From the NCBI GenBank assembly GCA_017451915.1, contig JAFTNJ010000012.1, positions 1-47,706 of the forward strand: a stretch of DNA of 47,706 nt, written 5' to 3'. The translations under genes were made by a program, and so were the position numbers. The DNA is from Clostridia bacterium (GTDB taxonomy: Bacteria; Bacillota; Clostridia; Oscillospirales; CAG-272). Positions 15,444 to 44,236 of this stretch are shown piece after piece. Numbering within the stretch: the stretch's first letter is position 1; the number at the start of each line of letters is the position of its first letter. The notes below the pieces were generated by a model. That model was given only the letters and a program-made list of their open reading frames with translations, was not told the origin of the DNA and did not search any database.

Positions 15444-15444
15444 T

Positions 15445-18785: not shown

Positions 18786-19842
18786 TTTCAACGTTCTCCT
18801 TGTTGTAAATATATCCAACAACAATCATGACCATGTATTTTAAGAATATAACTTCCATAAAAGCTACGGAAAACAAAGAAATCAGTACAACGGCGTCTTT
18901 GTTCGTCAGATGCCGGCTTCTTTTTCGTATAATCAGGAACGAATACATCAGCGTGTATAAAATACCCTTTGTTAAAAGCATATGCAGATATGCGTTGTCA
19001 AAGGACACTGCCTCCAATTTGCTGTTACCAAACAAGGTCATTCCGTAGGAAAGAAAGGCCTTACCGTGTGCCAATCTTCCCGTAAATATATCGTCTAAAT
19101 TCGTGTTGGCAAAATACAGGGGGAGGATAATGGCCAGAGCAAAAATAATGAAAAAGGTTATGGGGGCGATTTTGCCTAAAAACGTAACCTTATCTTCGAA
19201 TTTGAAGATCTTAAACAATACCAGTAATACTAAAATCACGGATATAGCATAAAAGAAGGTTCTACTTTGGGTTTCTACATATACAAAATAGTTTACGCCC
19301 AAAACCAGCGCATAAACAATCAGGTTTTTTGACAGAAGAAGAATCAGCAGGGAAGTGCAGAACAAATACAGCATACATCTGTTCGCATTCACAAAGCCAA
19401 GACCCTTTTGCAGAATAAAACACATATTTACTCTGTCCCAACTGGTCAGGTCATAGGATTGATTGTAACCAAAAAGATAATACGCCATTACGACAACGGC
19501 AAAAAAGAGCCCCATAATAAAGGTGACTACCTTGATTGATTTTTTGGAATACAGTTCCTTTGTTTCTAAAAACAGAAAAAACACAAAAATGGAGATTCGA
19601 TCAACCGTAAACGTTCCCGCCATCTGCAGAATAACAAACAGAACCAATACCACGTCCATGATCTGAATGCGATTGGTTTTGTTAAGAAACCAATAGACGC
19701 ACAAAATACCTGATGTCAATAAATTAAACAGCAGGTATTGATTCGGAAATATTTCCAAAAGGCAAGTGAATACGATTAAAAGGCTTAACAGCGCAGTTCG
19801 CCCTTTGTTTTTTGTTTTTGTTTTTACCGTTATATGTCCCAC
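18775..19842 (-). CDS. Wzy-like O-antigen/capsule polymerase
   Basis: A 355-residue polytopic membrane protein with about ten hydrophobic helices and a larger external loop (about residues 235-290, containing NTNLDDIFTGRLAHGKAFLSYGMTLFGNS). This is the usual layout of Wzy/O-antigen polymerases, and the GR...FG pattern in the loop is typical. It would join repeat units outside the membrane. The start is GTG and shares one base with the GT2 stop (TAGTG). No internal ATG near the N-terminus would fit better. The assignment rests on topology and context because Wzy proteins are poorly conserved. Confidence 0.82.
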   Translation of the reverse strand: MGHITVKTKTKNKGRTALLSLLIVFTCLLEIFPNQYLLFNLLTSGILCVYWFLNKTNRIQIMDVVLVLFVILQMAGTFTVDRISIFVFFLFLETKELYSKKSIKVVTFIMGLFFAVVVMAYYLFGYNQSYDLTSWDRVNMCFILQKGLGFVNANRCMLYLFCTSLLILLLSKNLIVYALVLGVNYFVYVETQSRTFFYAISVILVLLVLFKIFKFEDKVTFLGKIAPITFFIIFALAIILPLYFANTNLDDIFTGRLAHGKAFLSYGMTLFGNSKLEAVSFDNAYLHMLLTKGILYTLMYSFLIIRKRSRHLTNKDAVVLISLFSVAFMEVIFLKYMVMIVVGYIYNKENVENAH

Positions 19843-20759
19843 TATTTTAAATCACCCGTTTCCTCAAAAGGCTTGTTTGTTATGCTTTGCTCTAATATCT
19901 TGGCGTCCACCAAGGTCCGATACCACCGATGGTACATGTAGTGGTATACAAAGCCCTCTTTTCCATCCAAAAAGCCCAATTTGAATATGTAATTATAAAT
20001 AAATAACAGCCAGCATCTGAAAAACAAAGGGAACTTATAGTAAAACCCAAATTTCTTTTTGCGCGTGCTGAGAGTGACCGAATCATTTCCTTCGATTTCG
20101 TAGGAGCTTCCATTTTTAAAATCGTAGTAATCCTGCATTTCGCGGGTTGCATACCAGTTCATTTTATTGATCCAATGGTTCAGATCCTTAAAATCGTAGT
20201 GAATGAAACGCTCTTTGCAATAGATGCTTTTTCCTTCGGAAAGGACCGTATGCTCGTCCATTTTCCGGTTCTCTATTCTTGCCTTTCCGGTTTTAAACAA
20301 CATGATCTTTCGTTTGTTGTGACAACCGTGCTTTATCTTTCTGCCCATAAAGTAGAGCCAGGCTTCCATGGATACACCGTTTACGTCGTCCTGATCGTGC
20401 TCTTGAATGATTTTTCTCAATTCGTCGCACAATGCCGGGGTGAGACGCTCGTCTGCGTCCAGACGGAAGGACCACTTGGTATCTATGTTGGTATGATCAA
20501 TTCCCCAATTGAATTGCGTTGCGTAATTTACAAAAGGATTCACATATACGTCGGCGCCCATTTCCCGCGCAATGCTGCAAGTGTTGTCGGTGCTTCCGCT
20601 GTCCACAACAACCACTCTTTTTGCAAAGCCCCGAATGGAATTCAAGCAATCCACAATATTTATCTCTTCATTTTTCGTCAAAATAATGAAAGTGACGTCA
20701 ACGACGCCGGAATTCACTTCTGCTTCATTCGTCTTTTTTTCAACCGCTAAAGGTGACAT
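19842..20759 (-). CDS. GT2 glycosyltransferase
   Basis: A 305-residue family-2 glycosyltransferase. The GT-A start is TFIILTKNEEINIVDCLNSIRGFAKRVVVVDSGSTDNT and the metal-binding DxD is in SFRLDADERLTP near residue 100. The C-terminal half, including WINKMNWYATREMQDYYDF, resembles WaaE/KdtX-like relatives. It would add a sugar to the lipid-linked intermediate at the cytoplasmic face. A GGAGGAG ribosome site lies 4 bases before the ATG. It is the second gene of the operon, 62 bases after the initiating sugar transferase. Confidence 0.93.
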   Translation of the reverse strand: MSPLAVEKKTNEAEVNSGVVDVTFIILTKNEEINIVDCLNSIRGFAKRVVVVDSGSTDNTCSIAREMGADVYVNPFVNYATQFNWGIDHTNIDTKWSFRLDADERLTPALCDELRKIIQEHDQDDVNGVSMEAWLYFMGRKIKHGCHNKRKIMLFKTGKARIENRKMDEHTVLSEGKSIYCKERFIHYDFKDLNHWINKMNWYATREMQDYYDFKNGSSYEIEGNDSVTLSTRKKKFGFYYKFPLFFRCWLLFIYNYIFKLGFLDGKEGFVYHYMYHRWYRTLVDAKILEQSITNKPFEETGDLK

Positions 20760-23857: not shown

Positions 23858-24136
23858 TTGTTTTTTTACCCAATTTTTGGAAAATGTGGCGAAAAAATGC
23901 AAAACAAGAGAAAAAAGGATGGAAAATTCCGGCTTTTGTGCAAAATGCGCAGATGTAGAAAAAAGAAGCCCGAAAATGTGCAACCTGCACAAAGCAGTCG
24001 CGTGATTTTTGCATAATTTCACGCCGGAACCCTTTTGGAAACTGGTAAATAATATTTACCATTTAAGAATCATGCAAAAAAACGAAGAAAAAAGGTCGAA
24101 AAAAATAAACAAAAATCGAGGGCTTGGCGGGCCCTA
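23858..24136. other. AT-rich intergenic region upstream of the uptake operon
   Basis: No gene is seen. The sequence is rich in A-runs and holds the first operator-like palindrome (listed separately). Short open frames on both strands have no ribosome sites. Confidence 0.4.
24043..24061. promoter_or_regulatory. Operator-like perfect palindrome, copy 1
   Basis: TGGTAAATAATATTTACCA is a perfect 9-bp inverted repeat around one central base. A second, slightly degenerate copy lies 106 bases downstream, in front of the large uptake operon. A homodimeric repressor is likely; none is encoded nearby. Confidence 0.55.
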
Positions 24137-24165
24137 TTGACAAAAACGCCGTAAACTATATTTAC
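24137..24165 (+). promoter_or_regulatory. Upstream promoter candidate with overlapping operator copy 2
   Basis: TTGACA at 24137-24142 is followed by GTAAACTATATTTAC (24151-24165), a one-mismatch version of the GTAAA-N5-TTTAC palindrome. The -10 would be TATTTA at 16-base spacing or TATATT at 14-base spacing, so it is imperfect, but the operator overlaps it either way, which suits repression. Confidence 0.45.
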
Positions 24166-24302
24166 CTACCCGGTTTTTGCAAAAAAAGAAGGGAAGAGGT
24201 CAAGCGATTGAATGTAAACTTTTTGAAACATCGCTTTTGCAAAATCGTGAATTCTTGAACTTTTTGCGATTTTTGGGTGATGCTTTTGCGGATGGTTTCA
24301 TC

Positions 24303-24331
24303 TTGACAAAACAGGCGTTTTGTGGTATGAT
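24303..24331 (+). promoter_or_regulatory. Main promoter of the seven-gene uptake operon
   Basis: TTGACA (24303-24308), 17-base spacer, TATGAT (24326-24331). The spacer itself contains the palindrome ACAAAAC-aggc-GTTTTGT (24307-24324), a possible operator. It predicts a leader of about 245 bases. Confidence 0.75.
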
Positions 24332-24585: not shown

Positions 24586-27500
24586 ATGAGAAAAACGAAA
24601 TTCACAAGATTGCTTTGCTTAACCCTGGCAATGCTTCTTCTTGTGAGCAGCGCTGTTTTGTCCGTTAGTGCAGACGAACGAAACAACACCACGGACAAGT
24701 CGATTACCGACTATGTCGACGAACTCAATACCATCTCCTACGAAGAGTACATGGCTATGTATTCGGACTACTTCAGCGGAAGCATGGCGCCTGCGAAGGT
24801 GACCGTTGAGTTTGATGCTACAAAGGATTGGTCGTTCCGCGACGAAAAGGGAAATACCATTACCATCGCCGATGGCAAGTGGACCATGACCCTGAAGGCG
24901 GACGGAACCACCTACAACACCCTTGACGAGGCGGTCGTTGCCGGCTATAAGAAGAGCGAGTTGGTTTACGTGACCGACGAGTTCGAAGGCAAGTCGGCGA
25001 TCTACACGCCCAGTATGGGAGCCACCACCTGGACGTTGGATCTCGGTGCATACGGCATTACCAATACGGCCTTGTACAACATTAGTCTGGTGTACTACCC
25101 CGTATCCGGTAAGTCGGTTGCCATCGAGCGTGAGTTCTACATCAACTCCGAGGCCCCCTTTGCCGAGGCGCGTTCTTTGTCTCTGGCAAAGATCTGGGCA
25201 CTCCGCGCAACCGATGGCTCCTCGGCCCTGACCGGAACCTACGTTCTGAAGGACAGTGACGATATCAACACCGTGATCGCGGATGCAAACGCCGCCGGCG
25301 TAACCTACAAGGTTGCCGAGGATGGCTCTTCGATTACTGTGGAGCAACCCAGGGTGATCAACTCTGCCATTAACGCATTCGTAAATAAGTACAGTCTGCG
25401 TTTCTTTACCACCGATATGGGCAACAACGAGATGCGTCCTTCCATGCAGCAGGCTCCCGAGTGGACCAGCTACACCATGCATGACAGTGACGGCTTCTAC
25501 GGTGACGACTTTGGATTCGCTCTGAAGCCCGACGCCAACGGTGAGTTGAATCTGACTCTGGAGGGCGTAAACGAGCCCATGGCCATTGCGCAGATCATTC
25601 TTACTCCTTATACCACCTCCATTACCTACGAGGAGTATTTGAAGAGAGTATCTGCTCAGGTCAGCACCGAGGAGGGAACCGACGTGGTGAAGATTGAGGC
25701 GGAGTACCCCACCAACACCTCCACCAACGTAGTATTCCCCGTAGAGGACAGAACCTCGGCGCTTACCTCTCCTGCCGATACCCACAGAACGCTTCTCAAT
25801 ACCATCGGTACCGAGAAGTGGGCAACCGCAGGACAGTGGATTCAGTATCAGTTCAGCGTAAACGATTCGGGTATGTACGATATCTACTCCCGTTTCCAGC
25901 AGAGCTACCTGGACGGTATGTACGTCAGCCGTATTCTGAAGCTCTACACCGATTGCGAGAGCGTACAGGCCTACACCGCAAAGTACGGTAACAATGCCGG
26001 CTACTACAACGGCGTACCCTTTGCAGAGGCTTCGGCACTCCGTTACAACTATTCCTCCGGCTGGCAGGTAACCAACCTGACCAACGACAGTGTTTCTTCC
26101 TATAAATTGTATCTGGAGGCAGGCGTTGTTTACACCCTGCACCTGGAGGTAACGCTGGGAACCATGAGCAGCCTGGTACAAGAGGTTGAGGATATTCTTA
26201 CCATCCTGAACAACGACTACCTGAGCATCATTAAGCTCACCGGTTCTTCTCCCGACGATTACCGTGACTACAACTTCAACCGTCTGCTGCCCGATACTCT
26301 GATGAGTATGTACGATCAGTCCAAGCGGTTGGCTGTGGTTTCTCAGTTCCTGAAGGACACCTCCGGTGACGCATCTACCTACACCGGTATCTGCGATAAG
26401 CTGGTTGACCTGTTGAAGAAGATGGTTGCCGATGAGGATGCCATCGCAAAGAACCTGGATAACTTCAAGAGCTACGTTGGTTCTTTGGGTACCTTCCTTA
26501 CCGACGCCAAGACCCAGCCTCTGGAGCTGGACTACATCACCATTCAGCCCTCTACCGTGGAGCCTCCCAAGGGCGATGCAGGCTTCTTCAAGTCTCTGAT
26601 CCACGAGCTGAGCAGCTTTATCCAGTCCTTCTTCCGTGACTACAACCACATGGGCGCAATGGAGACCTCCGACGCTGTTGAGACCATCAGCGTGTGGGTT
26701 CCTTACGGCCGTGACCAGGCAAACGTTATTCGTAACCTGTCCACCAACCAGTTCACCCAGGATACCAAGATCTCGGTAGACCTGAAGCTGGTCGTTGGTA
26801 GCACCCTGCTTCCCTCGATTCTGGCAGGCATGGGCCCCGACGTTTACCTTGGATTGGGCCAGGCGAGCGTAATTAACTACGCGATCCGTGGCGCATTGAT
26901 CAATATTGAAGATATGGAAGGCTTCGACGAAGCCACCGCGAACTTTAATGACGCGGCTATGCTGGTTCTTGGAACCTATGACGCAGACGGTGAGTTGCAC
27001 TACTACGGTCTGCCCGAGAACCAGGAATTTGCGATGATGTTCGTTCGTGTTGACATCCTCGCAGAGTTGGGTATCGAGATCCCCACCACTTGGGAAGAGA
27101 TCTACGTAGCACAGTCCAAGCTGGAATCCAATAACATGGAGATCGGTGTTACCACCAGCTACAAGATCCACCTCTACCAGATGGAAGGTGAGCTCTTCGC
27201 AGACAACGGTATGAGAATCAACCTGGATTCCATCGTCGGTTTGAACGCCTTCGAAACCATGTGCGATATGTTCACTCAGTTCTCCTTCCCCTACAAGTAC
27301 GATGCGGCCAACCGTTTCAGAACCGGTGAAATGCCCATCATCATTTCCAACTATACCTCCCTTTATAATAAATTGAAGGTTTACGCAACCGAAATTGAAG
27401 GCTGTTGGACGTTCGTTCCCGTTCCCGGTTATGAGCATACCGACGAGAACGGCAACACCTACCTCAACAACGAGTCGGTTGCAAACGTGGACGCAACGGT

Positions 27501-28308
27501 TATGATCTCCGGTGTAAAGAACAAGCCCGCCGCTTGGGAGTACATCAAGTGGTACACCGGTGCCGCGTGTCAGGTTGCATACGCCAACGAGATGGTTGCT
27601 ATCATCGGTGACTCCGCAAAGCATCCTACCGCAAACCGCGTAGCGCTTGAGAGTATGCCTTGGACCCGTGAGGAGTACGAGGAGGTTTCCAAGCAGTACG
27701 AGAACCTTGCATCGGTTCCCAACTACCCCGGTTACTACATCATCGACCGTTACACCGACTTCGCGTTCCTTTCCGCTTACAACGATGACGCCGATCCCAG
27801 TACCGAGATCCTGAGCTACATCAACACCATCAACAAGGAAATCACCCGTAAGCGCGAAGAATTCAAGCTGGAAACTCTCGAGATCGGCCAGACCCTGGCA
27901 GACAAGAGAAAGGATCAGGCTCTGGAGGCAATGAAGGTATTGGAAGAGATCAATGCTTCCAAGTACTCCGCTATTATGAATAGCGCTAAGTACGCCATTG
28001 CAAACGAGAAGATCAATCAGCTTAAGGAAGTTGCCGATAACTTCTCCGCTCTCCTCTCCTACGACTACCTGAAGGATATTCGTGCCATCGAGGCAAACAA
28101 GGCCTTGATCGAGGCAGAGATCACCACGGCAAAACAAACGGTTTCCAACAAGGTAAAGACCCAGACCTACTACATGAACGTTACCAAGCAGACGGCCGAG
28201 CCTAAGAACGGCGGTTACAGCATTGATAGCCTGAATGAGGAGCAGCTGGTATACTTTATCTCGGTATGTCTTGACGACATGGCCACGGCAATCGCTTCCT
28301 ACCAGTAA
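24586..28308 (+). CDS. Giant multidomain extracellular substrate-binding protein
   Basis: A 1240-residue secreted protein. Residues 1-29 form a signal peptide cleaved at SVSA/DE; no lipobox Cys is present, unlike normal Gram-positive binding proteins. Residues 31-360 are beta-rich and unassigned. Residues 365-525 (VVKIEAEYPTNTST ... AGQWIQYQFSVNDSGMYDIYSRF ... LEAGVVYTLHLEVTLG) resemble a carbohydrate-binding jelly roll. Residues 525-655 are helical. Residues 700-1090 form a family-1 solute-binding domain (ISVWVPYGRDQANVIRNL, LLPSILAGMGPDVYLGLG, YYGLPENQEFAMMFVRVDILAELGI, WEYIKWYTG). Residues 1090-1240 are helical, probably coiled coil. Usual binding proteins are about 430 residues. The ATG follows AGGAGG by 8 bases. 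First gene of a seven-gene operon; a sugar or oligosaccharide ligand is inferred. Confidence 0.9.
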   Translation: MRKTKFTRLLCLTLAMLLLVSSAVLSVSADERNNTTDKSITDYVDELNTISYEEYMAMYSDYFSGSMAPAKVTVEFDATKDWSFRDEKGNTITIADGKWTMTLKADGTTYNTLDEAVVAGYKKSELVYVTDEFEGKSAIYTPSMGATTWTLDLGAYGITNTALYNISLVYYPVSGKSVAIEREFYINSEAPFAEARSLSLAKIWALRATDGSSALTGTYVLKDSDDINTVIADANAAGVTYKVAEDGSSITVEQPRVINSAINAFVNKYSLRFFTTDMGNNEMRPSMQQAPEWTSYTMHDSDGFYGDDFGFALKPDANGELNLTLEGVNEPMAIAQIILTPYTTSITYEEYLKRVSAQVSTEEGTDVVKIEAEYPTNTSTNVVFPVEDRTSALTSPADTHRTLLNTIGTEKWATAGQWIQYQFSVNDSGMYDIYSRFQQSYLDGMYVSRILKLYTDCESVQAYTAKYGNNAGYYNGVPFAEASALRYNYSSGWQVTNLTNDSVSSYKLYLEAGVVYTLHLEVTLGTMSSLVQEVEDILTILNNDYLSIIKLTGSSPDDYRDYNFNRLLPDTLMSMYDQSKRLAVVSQFLKDTSGDASTYTGICDKLVDLLKKMVADEDAIAKNLDNFKSYVGSLGTFLTDAKTQPLELDYITIQPSTVEPPKGDAGFFKSLIHELSSFIQSFFRDYNHMGAMETSDAVETISVWVPYGRDQANVIRNLSTNQFTQDTKISVDLKLVVGSTLLPSILAGMGPDVYLGLGQASVINYAIRGALINIEDMEGFDEATANFNDAAMLVLGTYDADGELHYYGLPENQEFAMMFVRVDILAELGIEIPTTWEEIYVAQSKLESNNMEIGVTTSYKIHLYQMEGELFADNGMRINLDSIVGLNAFETMCDMFTQFSFPYKYDAANRFRTGEMPIIISNYTSLYNKLKVYATEIEGCWTFVPVPGYEHTDENGNTYLNNESVANVDATVMISGVKNKPAAWEYIKWYTGAACQVAYANEMVAIIGDSAKHPTANRVALESMPWTREEYEEVSKQYENLASVPNYPGYYIIDRYTDFAFLSAYNDDADPSTEILSYINTINKEITRKREEFKLETLEIGQTLADKRKDQALEAMKVLEEINASKYSAIMNSAKYAIANEKINQLKEVADNFSALLSYDYLKDIRAIEANKALIEAEITTAKQTVSNKVKTQTYYMNVTKQTAEPKNGGYSIDSLNEEQLVYFISVCLDDMATAIASYQ

Positions 28309-28341
28309 ACCCTTTGAATTATTAAAGAAGGAGAAAGAGAA

Positions 28342-29289
28342 ATGGCAAAAACATCGGCAGAATATCAAGCTGTTGCCAGAAAAGACATGACCTATCGCCA
28401 ATGGATCTGGAAAGAGATGAAGCGCAACTGGTTCGCGTACGTTATGATCGCGCCCTACATGCTCATCTTCTCCATGTTTACCATCGTGCCTGTGGCCCTG
28501 TCCATGGTAATCAGCTTTACAGACTTTAACATGCTCCAGATGCCGAATATCGTATGGTTTGAGAACTACATCAACCTGTTCTTTGCAGACGATATCTTCT
28601 TGATCGCATGTAAAAACACTCTTATTTTCTCGGCTGTTGTAGGACCTGCTTCCTACTTGATGGCATTCCTGATCGCTTGGTTTATCAATGAGCTGGGTCC
28701 CCGGATCCGTTCCGTTGTTACCTTGATCTTCTACGCTCCCTCCATTTCGGGTCAGGTTTACCTGATTTGGGCAACGCTGTTTGACGCCGACGCCTACGGT
28801 TGGGTCAACGCAACGCTGTTGGAGATCGGATTTATTGACGAGCCCATTGCTTGGTTCCAGGATGCGGACTACGTTATGCCCTTGTGTATCGTGGTTGCGC
28901 TGTGGACCTCGCTGGGTACCACGTTCCTGGCGTTCATCGCGGGCTTGCAGGGTATTGACCGTGCACAGTACGAGGCAGGCGCCGTGGACGGCGTTAAGAA
29001 CCGTTGGCAGGAGCTTTGGTACATTACCTTGCCCAACATGAAGCCTCAGCTGATGTTCGGTGCAATTATGGCAATTACCAACGCCTTCGGCTTTGGCGGC
29101 GTTGTTACCGCCCTGGCCGGATTCCCCTCGGTTGACTATGCGGCGCATACCATCATGCACCACTTGGATGACTACGGCGGACAACGTTACGAGATCGGTT
29201 ATTCCTCTGCTATTGCAGTAATCCTCTTCCTGATCATGATCGGTGCAAACGGTCTGGTTAGAAAGATGCTCTCAAAGGTAGGTACGTAA
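28342..29289 (+). CDS. ABC sugar-type permease, UgpA/LplB-like (pair 1)
   Basis: A 315-residue membrane permease with six helices. Marks include KRNWFAYVMIAPYMLIFSMFTIVPVALSMVISFTDFN at the N-terminus and the cytoplasmic coupling (EAA) loop YEAGAVDGVKNRWQELWYITLPNMKPQ near residue 215, which contacts an ATPase. It belongs to the carbohydrate uptake group and pairs with the next gene, which starts one base after its stop. Spacing to the upstream binding protein is 33 bases, with a GGAGAAAG ribosome site. No ATPase gene is in the operon, as is common where a shared MsmX-type ATPase serves several importers. Confidence 0.93.
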   Translation: MAKTSAEYQAVARKDMTYRQWIWKEMKRNWFAYVMIAPYMLIFSMFTIVPVALSMVISFTDFNMLQMPNIVWFENYINLFFADDIFLIACKNTLIFSAVVGPASYLMAFLIAWFINELGPRIRSVVTLIFYAPSISGQVYLIWATLFDADAYGWVNATLLEIGFIDEPIAWFQDADYVMPLCIVVALWTSLGTTFLAFIAGLQGIDRAQYEAGAVDGVKNRWQELWYITLPNMKPQLMFGAIMAITNAFGFGGVVTALAGFPSVDYAAHTIMHHLDDYGGQRYEIGYSSAIAVILFLIMIGANGLVRKMLSKVGT

Positions 29290-29290
29290 T

Positions 29291-30163
29291 ATGGCAAAAT
29301 TAAGAACAAGAAAGCATAAGGTTGTCCTCTCCCGCTCTGCGGGAGGCGACGCCGGTATCGTCGTATTGCTGGTACTGCTGGGCGCATTCATGGTGCTTCC
29401 CATGGTTTACGTTATCATGCAGTCTCTCAAGCCTTTGGATGAGTTGTGGAACTATCCTCCCCGTTTCTACGTTGTAAATCCCACCCTGAAGAACTTCCGC
29501 GATTTGTTCATTCTGATGAACGACTCCTGGGTTCCGTTCTCCCGTTACATCTTTAATACCGTCTTTACTTCGGTAGGCGGTACCTTCGGTCACTTGTTCC
29601 TGGCGTCTATGTGCGCTTACGCCCTGGCAAAGATCAAATTCCCGGGCGCCAAGGGAACCTTTAAGCTGATCCGTACCTCGCTGATGTTCCACGCTACCGT
29701 TACCGCGGTTGCAAGCTTCATTCTGATGAGTACCTTCAAAATGGTAGATACCTACTGGGCAATCATCATTCCCGCATGGGGTGATACTTTGGGTCTGTAC
29801 CTGATGAAGCAGTTTATGGACAGTAACGTTCCCGACACCGTGCTGGAAAGTGCGCGTTTGGACGGTGCCAGCGAGCTCCGCACCTACTGGATCATCGCAA
29901 TGCCCATGGTTAAGCCCGCATGGCTGACCCTGATCATTGAGTGCTTCCGTAAGCTGTGGAACGCAGGTTCTTCCATTTACATTTACTCCGAGCAGTTGAA
30001 ATCCTTCAACTACGCCATCGGACAGATCACCGCCGGCGGTATTAAGCGTGCCGGTGCATCCGCTGCAGCAACCGTGTTGATGATGATGGTACCGATCCTG
30101 GTATTCGTTATTTCCCAGTCCAACATCATCGAAACCATGGGCTCCAGTGGTATGAAGGACTAA
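29291..30163 (+). CDS. ABC sugar-type permease, UgpE/LplC-like (pair 1)
   Basis: A 290-residue partner permease. GIVVLLVLLGAFMVLPMVYVIMQSLKPLDELW forms the first helix region and LESARLDGASELRTYWIIAMPMVKPAW is the EAA coupling loop. The external region before FMDSNVPDT is of normal length, in contrast to the homologous gene at 37099. The start lies one base after the previous stop, using GGTAGGTA inside that gene as ribosome site, so the two permeases should be made in equal amounts. Confidence 0.93.
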   Translation: MAKLRTRKHKVVLSRSAGGDAGIVVLLVLLGAFMVLPMVYVIMQSLKPLDELWNYPPRFYVVNPTLKNFRDLFILMNDSWVPFSRYIFNTVFTSVGGTFGHLFLASMCAYALAKIKFPGAKGTFKLIRTSLMFHATVTAVASFILMSTFKMVDTYWAIIIPAWGDTLGLYLMKQFMDSNVPDTVLESARLDGASELRTYWIIAMPMVKPAWLTLIIECFRKLWNAGSSIYIYSEQLKSFNYAIGQITAGGIKRAGASAAATVLMMMVPILVFVISQSNIIETMGSSGMKD

Positions 30164-30173
30164 GGAGGGCAAT

Positions 30174-32315
30174 ATGAAAAGAATTACATCTGTTTTGCTG
30201 ATTGTATTGTCTCTCGTGATGATGGCATCAGCATTCACCCTGGGCGCCGGAGCTTCTTCGGCATACCAGACCTACACCTATTCCATCAACGGTGAGGCTC
30301 TGTATTCGCCTGACGCGTACAGCGCGACCGGAACCTACGACTACCTGCAGATGGGATTGGATCTGAATCTGAACGGCCCCGGTGACATGGTTACCGACGC
30401 CAATCAGAAGGTCTACATCGCCGATACCGGTAATAACCGTATCCTGGTGCTGGACCGCTACTATAAGTTTGAGTTCCAGATCGACGAGTTTATCAACGAG
30501 CAGGGTAACAACGACGCCCTTGCCGGCCCTCAGGGTGTCTTCGTAACCGAGGATTCCATCTGGGTCTGCGATACCGATAAGAACCGTCTGGTGCAGTTTG
30601 ACCTGGCCGGTAACTTCGTTCGCATTCTGGATGCTCCCGAGAGCCAGCTGTTTGATGACGACGCGGTTTACAAGCCCGTGGCTATGGCCATCGACCAGTA
30701 CGGCCGAATCTACGTCGTATCCTCCACCACCTATCAGGGTATCATCGTGATGGACTCCGAGGGCGGATTTGTTGGATTCATCGGTGCGCAGGCCGTTACC
30801 ATCAGCGCGTGGGAGATCATCTGGAGAAGATTCCAGACCGACGAGCAGCAGAAGCTGACCTCCTCCTACGTATCCACCGAGTTTAACAACATCACCATTA
30901 CCGCCGACGGCTTTGTTTACGTTACCACCTCCTCCATTAAGGAGAGCTCGGTTCGTAGCGCCATCAACAGCAAGACCAAGTCGGGTACCTACATGCCCGT
31001 TAAGCTCTTGAACCCCGCCGGTGACGAGATCATGAGAAGAAACGGCTTCTGGCCTCCCGCAGGTGAGATCGACTTCTCCACCATCAGTACCGCGGAGTAT
31101 TCCGGTGTTTCCACCGTTACCGACGTAGCGGTTGGCCCCGAAAAGACCTGGACTATCATCGACTCCAAGAGAAACAAGCTTTACACCTACGACTACAACG
31201 GCAACCTGCTCTTTGCCTTTGGTGATAAGGGCGCAATGCTGGGTAGTATCTCCAACATTGAGGCGGTTTGCTACCAGGGTACCACCATGCTGGTATTGGA
31301 TAAGGGTAGTAACTGTATCGTCGTTTACGAGCGCACCGAGTACGGTGATATGCTCCTGGAGGCGATTGCCGCCGAGAACTCTCTGGACTACAACTACGCA
31401 ATCGATTGCTGGGAAGCCGTTCTCCAGAGAAACTCCAACTTTGACGCTGCTTACGTTGGTATTGGTAACGCTTACTACCGTAGCGGTGAATACAAGCAGG
31501 CTCTGGAATACTTTGAAATTGCTTACGACACCGAGGGGTGGTCCAACTCTTACAAGGAAGTTCGTAAGGAATGGATGTCCGATTGGTTCCTGCTGATGAT
31601 CCTGATCATTGTAGCCGTAATCATTGCCATTGCCAAGTTCTTCGGCTACGCCGCCAAGGTCAACAAGCGTGTTGCTACCGACGGTAAGGCAAGAAAGACC
31701 TTTGTTCAGGAGCTGCTGTACGGCTTCTACGTAATCTTCCATCCCTTTGACGGTTTCTATGACCTGAAGCACGAGCACCGCGGTTCGGTAAGAGCCTCTC
31801 TGGTGTTCCTCGGCCTCACCATTGTTACCTTCTTCTACCAGGGCATTGGTCAGGGTTACGTTCTCAATCCTACCGGCAAGACCACTACCATTTTCTCGCA
31901 GGCCATTTCTGTTCTGGTTCCTTTGTTCCTGTTCGTACTGGGTAACTGGTGCCTGACCACTCTGTTTGAGGGTGAAGGTAGCTTTAAGGATATCTTTATT
32001 GCATCCTGCTACTCCTTGTTGCCCTTGATCATGATCAATATCCCCGCAACCGTTCTTTCCAACTGGGTTACCAAAACCGAGGCAAGCCTGGTTACCTTTG
32101 TAGGTACGCTGGCGTTCATTTGGGTATTCATCCTCTTGTTCTTCGGCACCATGGTAACGCACGACTACTCCATGGTGAAGAACTTTATCACCATTCTGGG
32201 TACGGTGGTTGCAATGGCTTGTATCGTATTTATCGTACTGCTGTTTAGTATGTTGCTGTCCAAACTGGTAAGCTTGGTTTCCAATATCGTAACAGAGATC
32301 CAGTATCGAATGTAA
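30174..32315 (+). CDS. NHL-propeller / TPR / YIP1-domain membrane protein
   Basis: A 713-residue protein with an unusual domain chain. Residues 1-28 are a signal peptide. About 55-385 hold at least five NHL-type propeller blades, e.g. GPGDMVTDANQKVYIADTGNNRILVLD and PQGVFVTEDSIWVCDTDKNRLVQFDLAGNFVRIL. About 390-450 form a tetratricopeptide hairpin pair (YNYAIDCWEAVLQRNSNFDAAYVGIGNAYYRSGEYKQALEYFEIA). A helix follows at about 470-490 (FLLMILIIVAVIIAIAKFF), then a C-terminal YIP1-type membrane domain with several helices, opening at IFHPFDGFYDLKHEHRGS. The propeller should face outward. I infer a membrane-anchored scaffold that holds the soluble binding protein and the DUF5696-type protein near the permeases. 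It starts 10 bases after the permease gene with AGGAGGG. Confidence 0.85.
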   Translation: MKRITSVLLIVLSLVMMASAFTLGAGASSAYQTYTYSINGEALYSPDAYSATGTYDYLQMGLDLNLNGPGDMVTDANQKVYIADTGNNRILVLDRYYKFEFQIDEFINEQGNNDALAGPQGVFVTEDSIWVCDTDKNRLVQFDLAGNFVRILDAPESQLFDDDAVYKPVAMAIDQYGRIYVVSSTTYQGIIVMDSEGGFVGFIGAQAVTISAWEIIWRRFQTDEQQKLTSSYVSTEFNNITITADGFVYVTTSSIKESSVRSAINSKTKSGTYMPVKLLNPAGDEIMRRNGFWPPAGEIDFSTISTAEYSGVSTVTDVAVGPEKTWTIIDSKRNKLYTYDYNGNLLFAFGDKGAMLGSISNIEAVCYQGTTMLVLDKGSNCIVVYERTEYGDMLLEAIAAENSLDYNYAIDCWEAVLQRNSNFDAAYVGIGNAYYRSGEYKQALEYFEIAYDTEGWSNSYKEVRKEWMSDWFLLMILIIVAVIIAIAKFFGYAAKVNKRVATDGKARKTFVQELLYGFYVIFHPFDGFYDLKHEHRGSVRASLVFLGLTIVTFFYQGIGQGYVLNPTGKTTTIFSQAISVLVPLFLFVLGNWCLTTLFEGEGSFKDIFIASCYSLLPLIMINIPATVLSNWVTKTEASLVTFVGTLAFIWVFILLFFGTMVTHDYSMVKNFITILGTVVAMACIVFIVLLFSMLLSKLVSLVSNIVTEIQYRM

Positions 32316-32335
32316 GACAGATAGGAGGTTATGAA

Positions 32336-35300
32336 ATGAAATTCTGCAAAAAAATATTTTCGACACTCTTAGCTGTCATGATGCTTCTCAGCGTTGTTTC
32401 CACCTTTGGAATCAGCGCGAGTGCTGCCGAGGAAGAATTGACTGCGGATCAGATCATCCAAAATCAGTACCTCGGTGTGATCTACAATACCCCTGAGGAA
32501 AAGCTGGCTACCATGACGATGATGCTGGAGCGCGACGGCTTTCAGCTTTGGGTAGACGCAACCAGCGGCGAGGTCGCAACGGTGGAGATCGCCAGTGGAA
32601 ACATTGCCTTCTCCAACCCCTACGACGTAGCGGGTCCCTTGCTGGATCCCAAGCTCAACGGTTCGGATTCTACCAAGAAGCAGATCCTGTCCCAGCTGAT
32701 CGTTCAGTATATTGATAACGGTACCACGAAGTATCTGTACAGCTTTGAAGAGGCTGCAATGCGTGAGCAGATCAACGTGCTCTCCATTAAAAACGGTGTG
32801 CGTATTGAGTACACCATTGGTCGTGAAGAGACCAGAAAGCTGGTTCCTAGAACCCTTTCGGTAGAGAGCTATGAGACGTTGTTGAAAGCTCCTCTGCAGA
32901 CCGCGGTAGACAACGGGGAAATCTCCAAGTTCTACTTTGATAAGTTCAACGCGTTCTATGATTTTACGTCTCTGGATGAACAGAGATCGCAAAAGGCAAA
33001 GGACAATCTGCTCATCACCTATCCCATTTGCGCCGAGATGGATATTTACGTATTCGCAACCGACGCATCTGCGGTAGAGCTGAACTGGGTAGAGGCTCTC
33101 GTTAAGGCATACTGCGAGGATTACACCTTTGAGCAGATGGATGCCGACCACGAGGAGACCGGCTACGTTGCCACCGATGAGAAGTACCCCGTGTTCAAGA
33201 TGGCTCTGGAGTACTCTCTGGACAAGAACGGCATGAACGTTCGTATGCCCTGTAACGGTCTTCGTTATGACATGGGCACCTACACCCTGGAGAACCTCAC
33301 CATCCTGCCTTACTTTGGCGCAGGTAACAGTGAGAACCCCGGCTACAACTTCTATCCCGACGGTTCCGGTTCTCTGTTTGATTTTGAGCAGCTGAATACC
33401 AAGTCCACCACCACCATCCGCGGTAAGGTGTACGGTATCGACTACGCATATCATACCATTAACGGTACTTACCAAAAGGCGATCCGTTACCCCGTTTACG
33501 GTACGGTTGCCACCGAGACCATTTACTCCTTTACTTGCGCTAACGCCGCAGGTGAGACCGAAAACGTTCGCGTTTCCAATTCCATTATGGACCTGGAGGA
33601 GATCCAGACCTGGCTTGAGACCAACGGTTTGACCATGACCTCCGAGATCTCTGAGGAGACCTACAAGCGCGGATACGTTGCAATGATTGAGTCGGGCGAA
33701 TCCCTGGCCGAGATCGCAACCTATCACGCAGGCTCCTTGAGCTCTTACAACACCATGATGAACTACTTTAACCCGAAGCCGAAGGATAGCTACGATATTT
33801 CCGATGCCATTTCGGTAAGTAACGCGGGTTCGATCTGGACGGTTGTTTCCGAACGTAAGTACACCGGCAACATCAAGATCCATTACTCTCTCCTGAGTGA
33901 CAAGGCCATTGGCGAAGCCACCAGAGCAGAGAACGCAAACTACAAGTACTACGAGGCATCCTGGTTGGGTATGGCCGAGGCTTACCGTGATTATCTGGTA
34001 GATAACGGCACGCTGACCAAGCTGACCGAGGACGAGGTTCAGGAGGGTATTCCGCTCTACATTGAAACCTTTGGCGCACTGCTGACGCAGCAGACCATTG
34101 CTACCATCCCCGTAGACGTAATGACTCCTCTGACCACCTTTGACGACGTTCTTACCATGTACACGGCACTGTCGGATAAGGGTGTAAAGAACATCAACTT
34201 TAAGCTCACCGGTTATGCAAACGGCGGTATGTACTATACCGTTCCTTCCTCCCTCAAGTGGGAGAAGGCCGTTGGCGGCAAGGATGGCTTCCGTGAGTTG
34301 ATCTCCGAGTCCCAGGCCATCAATAACCTCGGTGACGGAAGTCACCTGGGTCTGTTCCCGGATTTTGACTTCGCTTACATTCAGGGCAACACTCTGTTTG
34401 ACAGCCTGAACCTGCAGGACGACGCGGTTAAGACCATCGATAACCGTTACACCTCCTACAGACAGTACAGTGCTACCCAGCAGACCTACGTAAGCTTCTA
34501 TCAGCTGGCCGTATCGCCTGCCCGTTACAGCAAGTTCTACACCAAGCTGATCGATAAGTATTCCGCATACGGCTTGAACACCATGTCGGTTGCTTCTCTC
34601 GGTACCGCGCTCAACTCCGACTTTGACGAGGATGAGCCCTACAACCGTGAGGACAACAAGGAGTTCACCGTTCAGGCATTCTCCGATCTGAAGAACGCCG
34701 GCTACAGCCTCATGACCGACGGCGGTAACGCTTACACCTGGGGCTACGTAGACCACATCATCAACGTAGATCTCGACTCCAGCCGTTACATCAAGTCCAG
34801 CGCATCCGTGCCTTTCATCGGTGCTGTACTCCACGGCTACATCGAGTTCGCAGGTACTCCCTTCAACGAGGAGGGTGATACCGACTACGCAATCCTCCGC
34901 GCCATCGAGAACGGTGCCGGAATGTACTTTGTTCTGTCTTACCAGAACACCAACGAGCTGAAGGAGGACTTCTTCCTCAGCCAGTACTACTCGGTTCGTT
35001 ACGACATTTGGGAGGACGACGTTGTTAACTACTACAACATGCTCAACGAGGCATTGAAGGACGTTCAGACCAAGGTGATTATCGATCACGGATTCCTGAC
35101 CGGTAAGCGCGTATTGGATAAGGACGAACTCCTGGCCGAGATCGAGCAGAGCCTGAAGGATGCTGCCGAAGCCGAGCAGCAGAAGCAGGAGGATCTGAAG
35201 AACGCACAGATCGTTCAGGTTGCCGATGCTTGGAACAGCGCAGAAAACGCAAGAACCAACATCCTGGCCCTGATCCAGGCAATGAATGATAAGAACGACG

Positions 35301-36085
35301 AGCTGCTGAAGAACTACAACCTGGTAGTAAGCTTTGCATCCAACGGTGTAAAAGACGCTCTGGTTACCCAGATGCTGAAGATGGGAGACGATGAGGAGGC
35401 CAACGCAAAGGCAATTGCCAATATGCAGGCTTACATTGACTCCATCAAGACCACCGCTGCTAACGTGCTGAAGTGCTACGAAGAGCAGAAGCTCCTGCTG
35501 CAGGAGGTTTACCAGGTGATCGCTGACGTAGAAGCTGCGTCCGATATCATCATGAATTCCGATCTGAGTGACGAGGTTAAGACCAACCTGGTTGACTACA
35601 TTGCTCAGTGCCTGACAGATGCTCAGACCCTGATCGGTGATGCCGAGGCTTTGGTAGACGTTCACCTGGATCTGGTGAAGGACGATACCAGTGACAAGGC
35701 TGTTACCAGAATTGCAACCACCTGCCGCGAGACCGTAGAAGGCTACCGCACCGTTATGGAAGAGTACATCGCTCACGTGGATACTCTGAAGGCTGCTTGC
35801 GAGAGCCACTACTTTACCGTGGAGGATGTTCGTGCCGCTGTTAAGCTGGATGACGGCAATGCAGGCATCGACAAGGACGATACCACCGACGGCTTTGACA
35901 AGTACTTTGTGGACAACAAGAAGATCGTTGTTGTAACCTACGGTGACCGCAACGATACCACCGGTGTTAAGACCGCGTACAAGAGCTTTATCCTGAACTA
36001 CAACACCTATGCGGTTGTGGTTGAGTATGAAGACGTTACCTACACCATTCCGAGCGGCGGATACGTCGTTCTTTACGAAAACTAA
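32336..36085 (+). CDS. DUF5696-type giant secreted protein with helical region
   Basis: A 1249-residue exported protein. Residues 1-30 form a signal peptide (ends SASA/AEEE); there is no lipobox and no clear membrane anchor. The N-terminal half is beta-rich and contains the family-typical NPGYNFYPDGSGSLFDF near residue 345. A central TIM-barrel-like segment (about 570-930, with IPLYIETFGALL, GVKNINFKLTGYANGG, LGLFPDFDFAYI, GYSLMTDGGNAYTWGYVDHIINV) looks like a glycoside-hydrolase fold, but I cannot name catalytic residues. Residues about 945-1175 are a long, charged, helical and probably coiled-coil stretch. The end (KIVVVTYGDRNDTTGVKTAYKSFILNYNTYAVVVEYEDVTYTIPSGGYVVLYEN) is a small beta domain. 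It may bind or trim the glycan taken up. A GGAGG site precedes this ATG. Confidence 0.85.
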   Translation: MKFCKKIFSTLLAVMMLLSVVSTFGISASAAEEELTADQIIQNQYLGVIYNTPEEKLATMTMMLERDGFQLWVDATSGEVATVEIASGNIAFSNPYDVAGPLLDPKLNGSDSTKKQILSQLIVQYIDNGTTKYLYSFEEAAMREQINVLSIKNGVRIEYTIGREETRKLVPRTLSVESYETLLKAPLQTAVDNGEISKFYFDKFNAFYDFTSLDEQRSQKAKDNLLITYPICAEMDIYVFATDASAVELNWVEALVKAYCEDYTFEQMDADHEETGYVATDEKYPVFKMALEYSLDKNGMNVRMPCNGLRYDMGTYTLENLTILPYFGAGNSENPGYNFYPDGSGSLFDFEQLNTKSTTTIRGKVYGIDYAYHTINGTYQKAIRYPVYGTVATETIYSFTCANAAGETENVRVSNSIMDLEEIQTWLETNGLTMTSEISEETYKRGYVAMIESGESLAEIATYHAGSLSSYNTMMNYFNPKPKDSYDISDAISVSNAGSIWTVVSERKYTGNIKIHYSLLSDKAIGEATRAENANYKYYEASWLGMAEAYRDYLVDNGTLTKLTEDEVQEGIPLYIETFGALLTQQTIATIPVDVMTPLTTFDDVLTMYTALSDKGVKNINFKLTGYANGGMYYTVPSSLKWEKAVGGKDGFRELISESQAINNLGDGSHLGLFPDFDFAYIQGNTLFDSLNLQDDAVKTIDNRYTSYRQYSATQQTYVSFYQLAVSPARYSKFYTKLIDKYSAYGLNTMSVASLGTALNSDFDEDEPYNREDNKEFTVQAFSDLKNAGYSLMTDGGNAYTWGYVDHIINVDLDSSRYIKSSASVPFIGAVLHGYIEFAGTPFNEEGDTDYAILRAIENGAGMYFVLSYQNTNELKEDFFLSQYYSVRYDIWEDDVVNYYNMLNEALKDVQTKVIIDHGFLTGKRVLDKDELLAEIEQSLKDAAEAEQQKQEDLKNAQIVQVADAWNSAENARTNILALIQAMNDKNDELLKNYNLVVSFASNGVKDALVTQMLKMGDDEEANAKAIANMQAYIDSIKTTAANVLKCYEEQKLLLQEVYQVIADVEAASDIIMNSDLSDEVKTNLVDYIAQCLTDAQTLIGDAEALVDVHLDLVKDDTSDKAVTRIATTCRETVEGYRTVMEEYIAHVDTLKAACESHYFTVEDVRAAVKLDDGNAGIDKDDTTDGFDKYFVDNKKIVVVTYGDRNDTTGVKTAYKSFILNYNTYAVVVEYEDVTYTIPSGGYVVLYEN

Positions 36086-36100
36086 AGGGGGGAATTACAG

Positions 36101-37081
36101 ATGACAAAAGATGTAAAGCTGGGTGCTGATATCGCGGCGCCTAAGAGAAGAAAAATCGCCTCCCTGGACCGTAAAAAGGCCCGTGCAGGATGGTTGTTCG
36201 TTCTTCCGTTTATCCTGGGATTCATCATTATTTATCTTCCCATGGTTTACGAGTCGCTTCTCCTGAGCTTCCACAAGGTAAGCATTGTGGGCGGCGACGC
36301 CGGTGGCTACACCACCACCTTCGTTGGCTGGGAAAACTACATGAACGCACTGTTCGTTGACCCTGATTTTGTCCAGACCCTGGTTTCGGGTCTGGGCCAG
36401 ATGGCCTTCGATATTCCCGCAATCCTGATCTTCTCTCTGTTCATGGCAGTTATGCTGAACCAGAAGATGGCAGGTAGAGCTGCATTCCGTGCAATCTTCT
36501 TCCTTCCCGTTATTCTTTCCACGGGTATTATGGAGAGCATTGCCGCCCAGGATATTTTGGGTGAGGAAATTGAGGAAGGCGGCGGTATTGATACCGGTAC
36601 CGAGGAAAATGCCTCCGAGCAGCTGGTTTCCAGTATGGACCTGGAGCGCTTGTTTGCCAACATGAAGGTTGGTACCGAGCTGGTTACCTACGTAACCACC
36701 GCAATTAACAACATTTACGACATTGTAAACCGTGCCGGCGTACAGCTGCTGATCTTCTTGGCAGCTCTGCAATCGATTTCTCCCGCCATTTATGAGGCCT
36801 GCAGAATCGACGGCGCAACCTCCTGGGAAACCTTCTGGAAGGTTACGTTCCCCATGATCAGCCCCATGATCCTGGTAAACGGTGTGTACACCATCATCGA
36901 CTCCTTTACCACCGAGAGTAATGAAGTCATGGTTTACATTTCCAACGTTTACTCCGAGGCTGACGGTGACGTTTTGAGCTCGGCAATGGCGTGGATCTAC
37001 TTCTTGATCGTAATTGCGATCGTTGCCATTATCGCTTCGGTAATGTCCGCGTTCGTCTTCTACTCAAGAAAGAATGACTAA
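36101..37081 (+). CDS. ABC sugar-type permease, UgpA-like (pair 2)
   Basis: A 326-residue permease. ARAGWLFVLPFILGFIIIYLPMVYESLLLSFHKVSIV is the first helix region and YEACRIDGATSWETFWKVTFPMISPM the EAA coupling loop. Between RAIFFLPVILSTG and LIFLAALQS it carries an acidic, glycine-rich segment (DILGEEIEEGGGIDTGTEENASEQ), somewhat longer than the usual external loop. It is a second, clearly different copy of the UgpA type in the same operon as the permease at 28342. A GGGGGG-type ribosome site lies 8-10 bases before the ATG. Confidence 0.92.
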   Translation: MTKDVKLGADIAAPKRRKIASLDRKKARAGWLFVLPFILGFIIIYLPMVYESLLLSFHKVSIVGGDAGGYTTTFVGWENYMNALFVDPDFVQTLVSGLGQMAFDIPAILIFSLFMAVMLNQKMAGRAAFRAIFFLPVILSTGIMESIAAQDILGEEIEEGGGIDTGTEENASEQLVSSMDLERLFANMKVGTELVTYVTTAINNIYDIVNRAGVQLLIFLAALQSISPAIYEACRIDGATSWETFWKVTFPMISPMILVNGVYTIIDSFTTESNEVMVYISNVYSEADGDVLSSAMAWIYFLIVIAIVAIIASVMSAFVFYSRKND

Positions 37082-37098
37082 GGAAGGAGGAGAAATAC

Positions 37099-38283
37099 AT
37101 GAATTCGCAAAACATTGATAACAAGCCGGCGGTAAAGCGCGAGACCAAAAACCGCATCCGTGTGGATTTTGACCGTACCCCGCTGAAAGAACGTCTTAAG
37201 GCAAAGTTCCTGTCCTTCTACTTCCTTACCAAGCTGGTTTACTGGATCTTCCGCTTGGTACTGATGGTAGGTATTTCCTACATCGTTATCTTCCCGTTTA
37301 TCACCAAGATCGCAGGTTCCTTCATGGCTCCTGAGGATTTTGTTGACGTAACGGTACAGTTGATTCCCAAAAACTTCTCTCTGGATATTTACCGGGCCGT
37401 TTTGACCGAGTTGAATTACTGGAGCGCGTTTGCTACTACCTTTACACTTTCGCTTTCCACCGCGCTGGTGCAAACCTTTATTTGCTGCTTGATCGCGTAC
37501 GGATTTGCAAAGTTTAAGTTCAAGGGCAGAAACCTCCTCTTCCTCTTGGTTATTCTTACCATGGTAATTCCTCACCAAACCCTGCAGCTTTCCATGTTCA
37601 TGGAGTTCCGTTACTTTGATCTTTTCGGAATCATCAAGCTGTTGAAGGGCGGCGGAATTGAGGTCTTTGGACACAACATTAAGAATCTGGGTGAGGGTGT
37701 TGCGGCATTCTTTGAAAAGCTGGACATCCTGCCGGATGAGATCAAGTGGGGCGCTTATAAGACCGCCCGCGGTATGACCAAGTATAAGGTACAAATGGAT
37801 ATTACCCAAGCGGGTATTAACCTGTGTAACACCTACTTCCCGTTGATCCTGTTGTCGCTGGGTGGCTTGGCGTTCAAGAACGGTTTGTACATTTTCATGC
37901 TTCGTCAGTTCTTCCGCGGCGTGCCGGACGAGTTGGAGGAATCCGCATACATGGACGGCTCCGGTGTTTTCCGCACCTTCGTTCAGATTATTCTTCCTCT
38001 GTCCATCCCCATGATGATCACCGTGTTCCTGTTCGCATTCTGCTGGCAGTGGACCGATGACTTCTACACCAACATGTTCTTCAGCTCTACTGAAGTAAAC
38101 CTGTTGACCAAGATCGTTGATATTCCCAACTCTTTGAAGACGGAATACGCAGGTCAGGCGCTGTACTACACGGCGATCCGTAACACCTGTGGTTTGATGA
38201 TCATTCTTCCCCTGGTGATTCTGTATATCTTCTGCCAGAACTTCCTGGTACAGGGTATCGAGCACTCGGGTATCGCAAACTAA
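37099..38283 (+). CDS. ABC sugar-type permease with large external insertion (pair 2)
   Basis: A 394-residue UgpE-type permease, about 100 residues longer than usual (about 280-290). It has a 50-residue charged N-terminal extension. An insertion of about 65 residues (about 178-243, from KLLKGGGIEVFGHNIKNL to MDITQAGINLC) sits between FDLFGII and NTYFPLILL, a loop that normally lies on the outer face. The EAA loop is LEESAYMDGSGVFRTFVQIILPLSIPMM. The added loop may touch the oversized binding protein or the DUF5696-type protein. Last gene of the operon, with GGAGGAG upstream and a strong terminator after it. Confidence 0.9.
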   Translation: MNSQNIDNKPAVKRETKNRIRVDFDRTPLKERLKAKFLSFYFLTKLVYWIFRLVLMVGISYIVIFPFITKIAGSFMAPEDFVDVTVQLIPKNFSLDIYRAVLTELNYWSAFATTFTLSLSTALVQTFICCLIAYGFAKFKFKGRNLLFLLVILTMVIPHQTLQLSMFMEFRYFDLFGIIKLLKGGGIEVFGHNIKNLGEGVAAFFEKLDILPDEIKWGAYKTARGMTKYKVQMDITQAGINLCNTYFPLILLSLGGLAFKNGLYIFMLRQFFRGVPDELEESAYMDGSGVFRTFVQIILPLSIPMMITVFLFAFCWQWTDDFYTNMFFSSTEVNLLTKIVDIPNSLKTEYAGQALYYTAIRNTCGLMIILPLVILYIFCQNFLVQGIEHSGIAN

Positions 38284-38306
38284 TTGATTTGCGGCAAATA
38301 AAAAGG

Positions 38307-38338
38307 CCGGGCATCTTTCAAAGATGCCCGGTTTTTTT
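38307..38338 (+). terminator. Terminator of the uptake operon
   Basis: A perfect 11-bp stem CCGGGCATCTT / AAGATGCCCGG (loop TCA) followed by TTTTTTT, 23 bases after the last stop codon. Confidence 0.95.
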
Positions 38339-44021: not shown

Positions 44022-44055
44022 CTTTACAGGGTTTTTGTGGTGTGGGGAAGAAAAA

Positions 44056-44232
44056 GTGAAATATTCGGCTTGCGCCGAATGTGAAATAATTTCCTTGCGG
44101 AAATTGTGAAATATTGCTCCTGCGTCGCAATGTGAAATGAAATTTGCCCACATTCGCGTCAGCGAATATTTCACATTTGCAGAGCAAATATTTCACAGCG
44201 AAGCTATTTCACTTGCCCGAAGGGCAAATTTC
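44056..44232. repeat. Symmetric multi-hairpin array B (TGTGAAAT / ATTTCACA linkers)
   Basis: Seven small hairpins with different stems separated by a constant octamer. The left half has TGTGAAAT at 44055, 44080, 44105 and 44131; the right half has the complement ATTTCAC(A) at 44168, 44190, 44206 and a partial copy at 44228. Hairpins: ATTCGGC-GCCGAAT, AATTTCC-GGAAATT, ATTGC-GCAAT, ATTCGC-GCGAAT, ATTTGC-GCAAAT, AGC-GCT, TTGCCC-GGGCAA. Left and right linkers can pair in nested order. The architecture is the same as array A, with unrelated linker and stem sequences. It abuts the tRNA terminator. Non-coding. Confidence 0.75.
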
Positions 44233-44236
44233 GTTG

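Follow-up and report, generated by a model that had tools for sequence, protein, structure and literature searches.

Introduction

Carbohydrate ATP-binding cassette (ABC) importers of the CUT1, or type I, class that draw on a shared MsmX/UgpC ATPase are known (PMC7658222), including in C. phytofermentans (PMC4452783). They combine UgpA/UgpE-type permeases with an SBP_bac_1 solute-binding protein (SBP) and an ATPase encoded elsewhere. A seven-gene operon with permeases and a binding protein of these types, and with an ATPase that is probably encoded elsewhere too, lies on contig JAFTNJ010000012.1 of Clostridia bacterium assembly GCA_017451915.1, a 2.2-Mb draft genome that is 87% complete; we refer to this whole stretch of 47,706 nucleotides (nt), contig C66 of the draft, as the window. 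Compared with these importers, the operon differs in having two permease pairs, an SBP of 1240 amino acids (aa), and, within the same unit, an NHL-YIP1 membrane protein and a DUF5696 protein.

Characterized proteins with which DUF5696 can be compared belong to, or resemble, glycoside hydrolase (GH) family 129. In NagBb, Glu478 is presumably the second residue of the pair that includes Asp435. NagBb is a GH129 alpha-N-acetylgalactosaminidase in which Asp435 is catalytic and, of the two residues, the only one conserved in DagB, according to its report (PMC5698469); DagB is described as a GH129-like 3,6-anhydro-D-galactosidase (PMC8106489).

A literature search, outside which lay subscription papers and supplements, returned no paper on DUF5696 or on this gene set (YIP1, NHL, permease, solute-binding, Paenibacillus). 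From sequence analysis we propose, with moderate confidence, that the operon encodes two CUT1-type ABC importers for carbohydrates, joined as a fixed unit.

Gene order and modules of the operon

The seven open reading frames (ORFs) lie on the plus strand at 24586 to 38283, with successive gaps of 33, 1, 10, 20, 15, and 17 nt in an ORF and Pfam scan. The first encodes the giant SBP (24586 to 28308), predicted to comprise a hydrophobic N-terminal segment, a CBM35-like middle, a helical part, an SBP_bac_1 domain (nt 26746 to 27567; the remaining domain borders are approximate), and a C-terminal extension. Its start was taken as the ATG at 24586, which has AGGAGG upstream; the ORF program had placed it at the GTG at 24379. 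There follow the UgpA-type permease PA1 (28342 to 29289) and the UgpE-type permease PB1 (29291 to 30163), both assigned by Pfam and subfamily models, an NHL propeller, TPR, and Yip1 membrane protein of 713 aa (NHL-YIP1; 30174 to 32315), the DUF5696 protein of 1249 aa with a putative distant GH129-type barrel (32336 to 36085), and permeases PA2 (36101 to 37081) and PB2 (37099 to 38283). Pfam matches were SBP_bac_1 (PF01547, E 4e-13) in gene 1, BPD_transp_1 in the four permease genes (under the curated cut-off in gene 3), NHL, Yip1 (PF04893, E 2e-15), and, under the cut-off, TPR in gene 4, and DUF5696 (PF18952, E 8e-133) in gene 5.

We mapped 118 loci: 36 from relatives, 2 from plasmids, and 80 from a species collection, the last (L077 to L156) being the closest PB1 loci, that is, the best 80 of at least 586 matches. 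L077, L078, and L079 repeat the contigs of L058, L065, and L070; such duplicates are counted in the gene-order, residue, EAA-like loop and segment, ordinary-SBP, and looser-palindrome tallies and dropped from the other palindrome tallies and the promoter tally. The full seven-gene order, with no inserted ORF of at least 100 aa, was found in 103 of the 118 loci. Contig ends cut 14 of the other 15, and the last (L115) keeps all seven genes in order, with an additional PB1-like permease upstream. Intergenic gaps had medians of 1 to 34 nt. Judged from these sequences, gene order is conserved far beyond chance, and the linkage of the large genes, for which the first-pass annotation of this DNA had called for a gene-order search in other genomes, holds.

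DUF5696 was present in 41 of 60 genomes, comprising 27 of 35 from the genus (own genome included) and 14 of 25 others from the family or order. A scan of the phylum placed it above the cut-off in 26/299 genomes; 20 loci from phylum-scan genomes included 13 with the full order, 6 with module B (defined below) lacking an adjoining module A, and 1 with a permuted order. The unit looks widespread, given that a PB1-motif scan with one genome per species yielded at least 586 confirmed PB1 relatives. Each of the best 80 of these loci also has other genes of the unit, correctly ordered as far as its contig extends; nearly all 80 come from metagenome-assembled Clostridia or Bacillota, many of them from herbivore guts. 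Plasmid copies in Butyrivibrio fibrisolvens (pNP243) and Paenibacillus cellulosilyticus share the seven-gene order with the window, the former with NHL and YIP1 as split genes. Unlike the window, both have ordinary SBPs downstream; upstream are GH43 and two-component genes in Butyrivibrio and ugpC, directly preceding the unit, in Paenibacillus. We rejected the idea that the two permease pairs arose by recent tandem duplication of a single pair, because cross-pair scores in four loci were 18 to 55 bits versus 186 to 682 bits within families.

Sequence comparison divides the operon into module A (giant SBP with PA1/PB1) and module B (NHL-YIP1 and DUF5696 with PA2/PB2). Profiles of the giant SBP, NHL-YIP1, PB1, and DUF5696 were run against eleven DUF5696-carrying genomes; the far genomes among them were picked after DUF5696 had been seen there, so their counts are not phylum frequencies. 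NHL-YIP1 adjoins DUF5696 in 64/68 places, and DUF5696 has no NHL-YIP1 neighbor in 9/73, of which several lie at the end of a contig. For the giant SBP, an NHL-YIP1 gene is located within 6 kb in 32/41 places; the other 9/41, like the 36/68 NHL-YIP1 places with no giant SBP within 6 kb, all fall in two families, f68 and f83. Part of these separations may be due to contig ends, above all in the fragmented genome G140. Six standalone A loci (L177 to L182) consist of the giant SBP, PA1, and PB1 only, and five of them have neighbors that look similar by eye. In 14 standalone B loci, an ordinary SBP, detected with a custom hidden Markov model built from seven proteins (five or six confirmed by Pfam, one annotated), directly follows PB2 in 9 and precedes NHL-YIP1 in 1. 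An ordinary SBP also adjoins the unit in 14/22 other far loci and 4/116 near loci, contig-cut loci included. Because standalone B thus adjoins an ordinary SBP in 10/14 loci, we rejected the general rule that one giant SBP serves both pairs. Permease pairs occurring apart with binding proteins of their own, which the first-pass annotation had listed as evidence against its interpretation, therefore do exist in f68 and f83, and not in the window's order.

Giant SBP, permeases, and a candidate ATPase

The C-terminal half of the giant SBP matches solved sugar SBPs by profile, best of all Lin1841 (PDB 5ysb; E 5e-32). This closest solved relative has 397 aa and, unlike the giant SBP, no long N-terminal part; we take it to be the Listeria innocua protein whose ligand is beta-1,2-glucooligosaccharides. 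The middle of the giant SBP matches, by profile, cycloisomaltooligosaccharide glucanotransferase chains (E 3e-9), in what we assume to be their CBM35 part, and also coiled-coil designs. Comparison of part of the N-terminal half with solved structures by phmmer gave no match, and the glucanotransferase chains emerged from the profile only. An N-terminal hydrophobic segment is present in 114/127 giant SBPs. By a crude test, a lipobox-like motif lies near the N terminus in 13/127, and most giant SBPs would therefore not be typical lipoproteins.

The permeases match UgpA, UgpE, and MalG models, all under the model cut-offs. An EAA-like pattern was found in PB1 (129/129), PA2 (127/131), and PB2 (121/130). 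At the same spacer limit it was found in 0/126 PA1 sequences, and with a longer spacer allowed it was found in 125/125. The EAA-like loop spacer of PA1 (28342 to 29289) is longer than those of PB1, PA2, and PB2 across the whole set checked. About 60 residues in PA2 and about 90 in PB2 separate predicted transmembrane segments TM3 and TM4, and by the usual topology these stretches would be extracellular. In these two respects, permeases that carry EAA-like coupling loops and a sugar-type SBP, the operon agrees with a CUT1/type I carbohydrate importer.

None of the seven genes encodes an ATPase. Elsewhere in the genome, an orphan ATPase on contig C27, without a permease match, scores above the UgpC subfamily cut-off (478 versus 432 bits), and a second ATPase, of the OB_MalK type, lies on contig C46 (341 bits) beside its own permeases and SBP. 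Genome wide, there are 13 BPD_transp_1 matches, 4 of them in the operon, and 3 SBP_bac_1 proteins above the cut-off, 1 of them in the operon; both others adjoin permeases of their own. These results bear out much of the first-pass annotation, which had described seven plus-strand genes with gaps of 1 to 33 nt, four UgpA/UgpE-type permeases forming two pairs (here confirmed by BPD_transp_1, the subfamily models, and the EAA-like loops), and a single binding protein with no ATPase in the operon. Its further claim of large exported parts and an NHL-YIP1 membrane protein agrees with the lengths of 1240 and 1249 aa and with the NHL, TPR, and Yip1 domains.

DUF5696 and NHL-YIP1 proteins

DUF5696 profiles match chains of both NagBb and DagB, at E values of 1e-7 to 4e-11; they align to the barrel of each protein and, in DagB, also to an N-terminal segment. 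Three segments of DagB (N-terminal, barrel, and C-terminal) align to DUF5696 in the same order, the third being insignificant alone. Because GH129 proteins (PF11308) were found in only 1/118 relatives' genomes, a single GH129 sequence was compared by hhalign, which aligned 344 columns (prob 37, E 3.5e-4). In that protein Asp383 and Glu426 lie 43 residues apart, the same spacing as Asp435 and Glu478 in NagBb.

In this remote alignment, Ser754 of the window protein falls at the column of the GH129 nucleophile. Near sequences have Ser or Thr there in 98/110 and Asp in 2/110 (non-Asp in 108/110, window included), versus Asp in 21/36 far sequences. The DUF5696 protein of Paenibacillus cellulosilyticus is one that retains Asp at this column. 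A GH129-type nucleophile was therefore likely lost in the window's clade, as far as the remote alignment can be trusted, and DUF5696 in this clade is probably a binder, not a cleaving enzyme. The window protein matches PF18952 only, and PF11308 has no match in its own genome. With a non-Asp residue at the nucleophile column and no GH129 model match, we rejected the view that DUF5696 is an ordinary GH129 enzyme. Relative to NagBb and DagB, it differs in the Ser that replaces the aligned Asp (window), in the lack of a GH129 Pfam match, and in being tied to permeases.

The DUF5696 ORFs of L081, L091, L093, L097, L098, and L103 are about 1920 to 2060 aa long, compared with 1249 aa in the window. 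A DUF6259 protein on contig C22 of the window's own genome (L074, 7005 to 8984, minus strand) weakly matches DUF5696, which suggests a relationship between the two families.

In NHL-YIP1, a hydrophobic segment at the N terminus is followed by the NHL and TPR regions and, after residue 380, by six further hydrophobic segments; the Yip1 domain together with several predicted membrane helices places it in the Yip1 family. If the N-terminal segment is a signal or an anchor, the NHL and TPR regions would lie outside the cell, which we consider probable from this layout. NHL and YIP1 occur as two adjoining or overlapping genes in L075 (13926 to 16021) and likewise in L157 and L039.

Proposed mechanism and alternatives

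In the arrangement we favor, the CBM35-like part of the giant SBP would hold the glycan, and its SBP domain would hand an oligosaccharide to PA1/PB1. In module B, DUF5696, as a probable binder built on a GH129-type barrel, would be anchored at the membrane by NHL-TPR-YIP1, which may act as a scaffold, and would serve PA2/PB2. The orphan UgpC/MsmX-type ATPase encoded elsewhere would power both pairs, and a dedicated regulator at twin palindromes upstream of the operon would set its transcription. The first-pass annotation had envisaged a large surface complex that captures and processes a polymer ahead of two translocation channels. This view is supported in part: the conserved unit, the two pairs, the one SBP of the operon, the large exported parts, and the NHL/TPR membrane protein speak for it; the separate occurrence of the two modules in f68 and f83 weakens it, and processing is made doubtful by the nucleophile column. 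If our proposal is true, a glycan-capture system common among the poorly cultured Clostridia of the gut now has a name. DUF5696 and the NHL-YIP1 proteins of bacteria would then have a function, and the operon would be a case in which to test how an enzyme fold can become part of a transporter.

Several observations weigh against this proposal. The DUF5696-GH129 correspondence is remote and rests on one GH129 sequence. An acidic residue at position 795 (Asp795 in the window), near the acid/base region, is present in 73/110 near and 15/36 far sequences, so that loss of activity is uncertain, and Glu858 is conserved in 144/145. Sharing of the orphan UgpC ATPase by both pairs, which we infer, is argued from the analogy with MsmX. 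No GH gene, as expected of a Gram-positive polysaccharide utilization locus, was found among the ten window ORFs scanned, nor did these ORFs give any hint of the substrate; some relatives do have GH genes beside the unit. Neighbor tallies for near relatives covered 34 of 37 same-strand upstream and 28 of 38 downstream neighbors and list 25/52 upstream and 25/49 downstream families; most of these 34 and 28 neighbors are not GHs, and those upstream are often mnmA (12/34) or SufBD (4/34).

Among the downstream families listed there are one GH123 and one GH27-type gene, and a GH31 gene adjoins the operon downstream in L066 and L069, both from the genus. GH78-type and GH127 genes lie beside the unit in another genome of the window's order (G046), and plant-glycan enzymes (GH26, GH28, GH43, GH106, and an apiosidase) lie beside it in other orders. 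From these relatives and their habitat, our guess is that the substrate is plant-derived oligosaccharides.

The strongest alternative, though in our estimation an unlikely one, is that two independent importers merely share a transcript, take up different substrates, and make no contact, with the SBP for module B encoded elsewhere or pair 2 using the giant SBP. Modules A and B each standing alone in f68 and f83, the ordinary SBP beside standalone B, and the two further SBP_bac_1 proteins in the genome all fit this alternative. Those two SBPs adjoin their own permeases, however, and none of the 116 near loci, which were selected through DUF5696 or PB1, has the unit split or interrupted save by a contig end, a fixity that co-transcription does not need.

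A bolder version of the two-importer unit strikes us as rather improbable: in this clade DUF5696 would be a nucleophile-less glycosidase fold that replaces the ordinary SBP of pair 2, anchored by NHL-TPR-YIP1 and joined to a second importer fed by the giant SBP, all under a private regulator. The counts that prompt it are those given above, with ordinary SBPs adjoining 4/116 near versus 14/22 and 10/14 far loci and Asp at the nucleophile column in 2/110 versus 21/36 sequences. Within the far group, the link between an ordinary SBP and Asp at that column was not significant (Fisher p 0.18), and phylogeny may therefore explain both traits.

We also doubt that DUF5696, perhaps by means of a different catalytic pair, acts as an exo-glycosidase that trims captured glycan before import. 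Its GH129-type homology, the Asp at the nucleophile column in most far sequences, the acidic residue at 795, and the conservation of Glu858, Asp342 (140/144), Asp369 (137/144), and Asp762 (125/146) would suit such an enzyme, but near sequences mostly have Ser or Thr at that column, with Asp in two only, and the alignments place Asp342 and Asp369 before the GH129-matching segment of the barrel. Finally, a carbohydrate-sensing or surface-assembly apparatus, with NHL-YIP1 and DUF5696 as the receptor and the ABC parts secondary, could draw on the probably extracellular NHL and TPR protein-interaction regions and on the scarcity of catabolic neighbors in near relatives, but we regard it as very improbable in view of four permeases with EAA-like loops, a sugar-type SBP, and domain scans of the seven proteins that report no signaling domain.

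Control region

Upstream of the operon are two copies of the palindrome GTAAA-N5-TTTAC, putative operators at 24045 to 24059 (distal) and 24151 to 24165 (proximal), 106 bp apart. A third conserved element, TGTAAACTTTTTG, lies at 24213 to 24225 (plus strand) and recurs in 12/21 genus loci, 61 to 64 bp past the proximal palindrome. The predicted promoter, TTGACA-17-TATGAT with an extended -10 (11/12 match), is at 24303 to 24331 (plus strand), and a putative intrinsic terminator with an 11-bp stem and seven T is at 38307 to 38338 (plus strand), with a T-run on the opposite strand as well. The first-pass annotation had enclosed the operon by one promoter and one terminator; both were found, the promoter outside the interval (24586 to 38338) that it had assigned to the operon. 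Scans for promoter- or terminator-like sites alone gave no excess over shuffled sequences. The promoter call gains weight because it is conserved across genus loci, being present in 17/21, at 139 or 148 to 153 bp past the start of the proximal palindrome. No Rfam family reached the gathering threshold in a riboswitch search of the leader.

At least one palindrome copy was found in 20/21 genus loci and two copies in 17/21; the remaining locus (L062), missed in this count because an over-long ORF call covers its copies, has two as well, 115 bp apart. The palindrome is upstream of the unit in 50/104 near and 0/15 far loci. Pairs are spaced by 103 to 106 bp in 18/27 cases and by 113 to 114 bp in 4, distances near 10 and 11 turns of the DNA helix. 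Its density is 1.06 per kb upstream versus 0.0077 elsewhere in the same loci, and a slightly looser pattern occurs in 54/122 upstream regions versus a mean of 0.9 in shuffled ones. A search of nine genus genomes with the pattern GTAAAYNNNATTTAC gave 15 distinct sites: 14 upstream of this operon and one inside an ORF on contig C21 of the window's own genome; the reversed pattern has 1 match in total. Since the sites are nearly private to the operon, the simplest reading of these sequences suggests a dedicated regulator at the twin palindromes. The twin palindromes are newly recognized, and with them the regulator and its inducer become findable.

Other features of the window

Minus-strand ORFs opposite the operon at 24619 to 29184, 30228 to 32366, and 32369 to 35809 (1521, 712, and 1146 aa) are probably codon-usage shadows. 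At 13763 to 20759 (minus strand), the window carries a surface-polymer cluster with NTP_transf_5, a CDP-glycerol glycerophosphotransferase, a polysaccharide flippase-type protein, and a glycosyltransferase. Two Gut-1 RNA matches, at 44054 to 44143 (plus strand) and 44163 to 44236 (minus strand), adjoin a tRNA-Gln gene.

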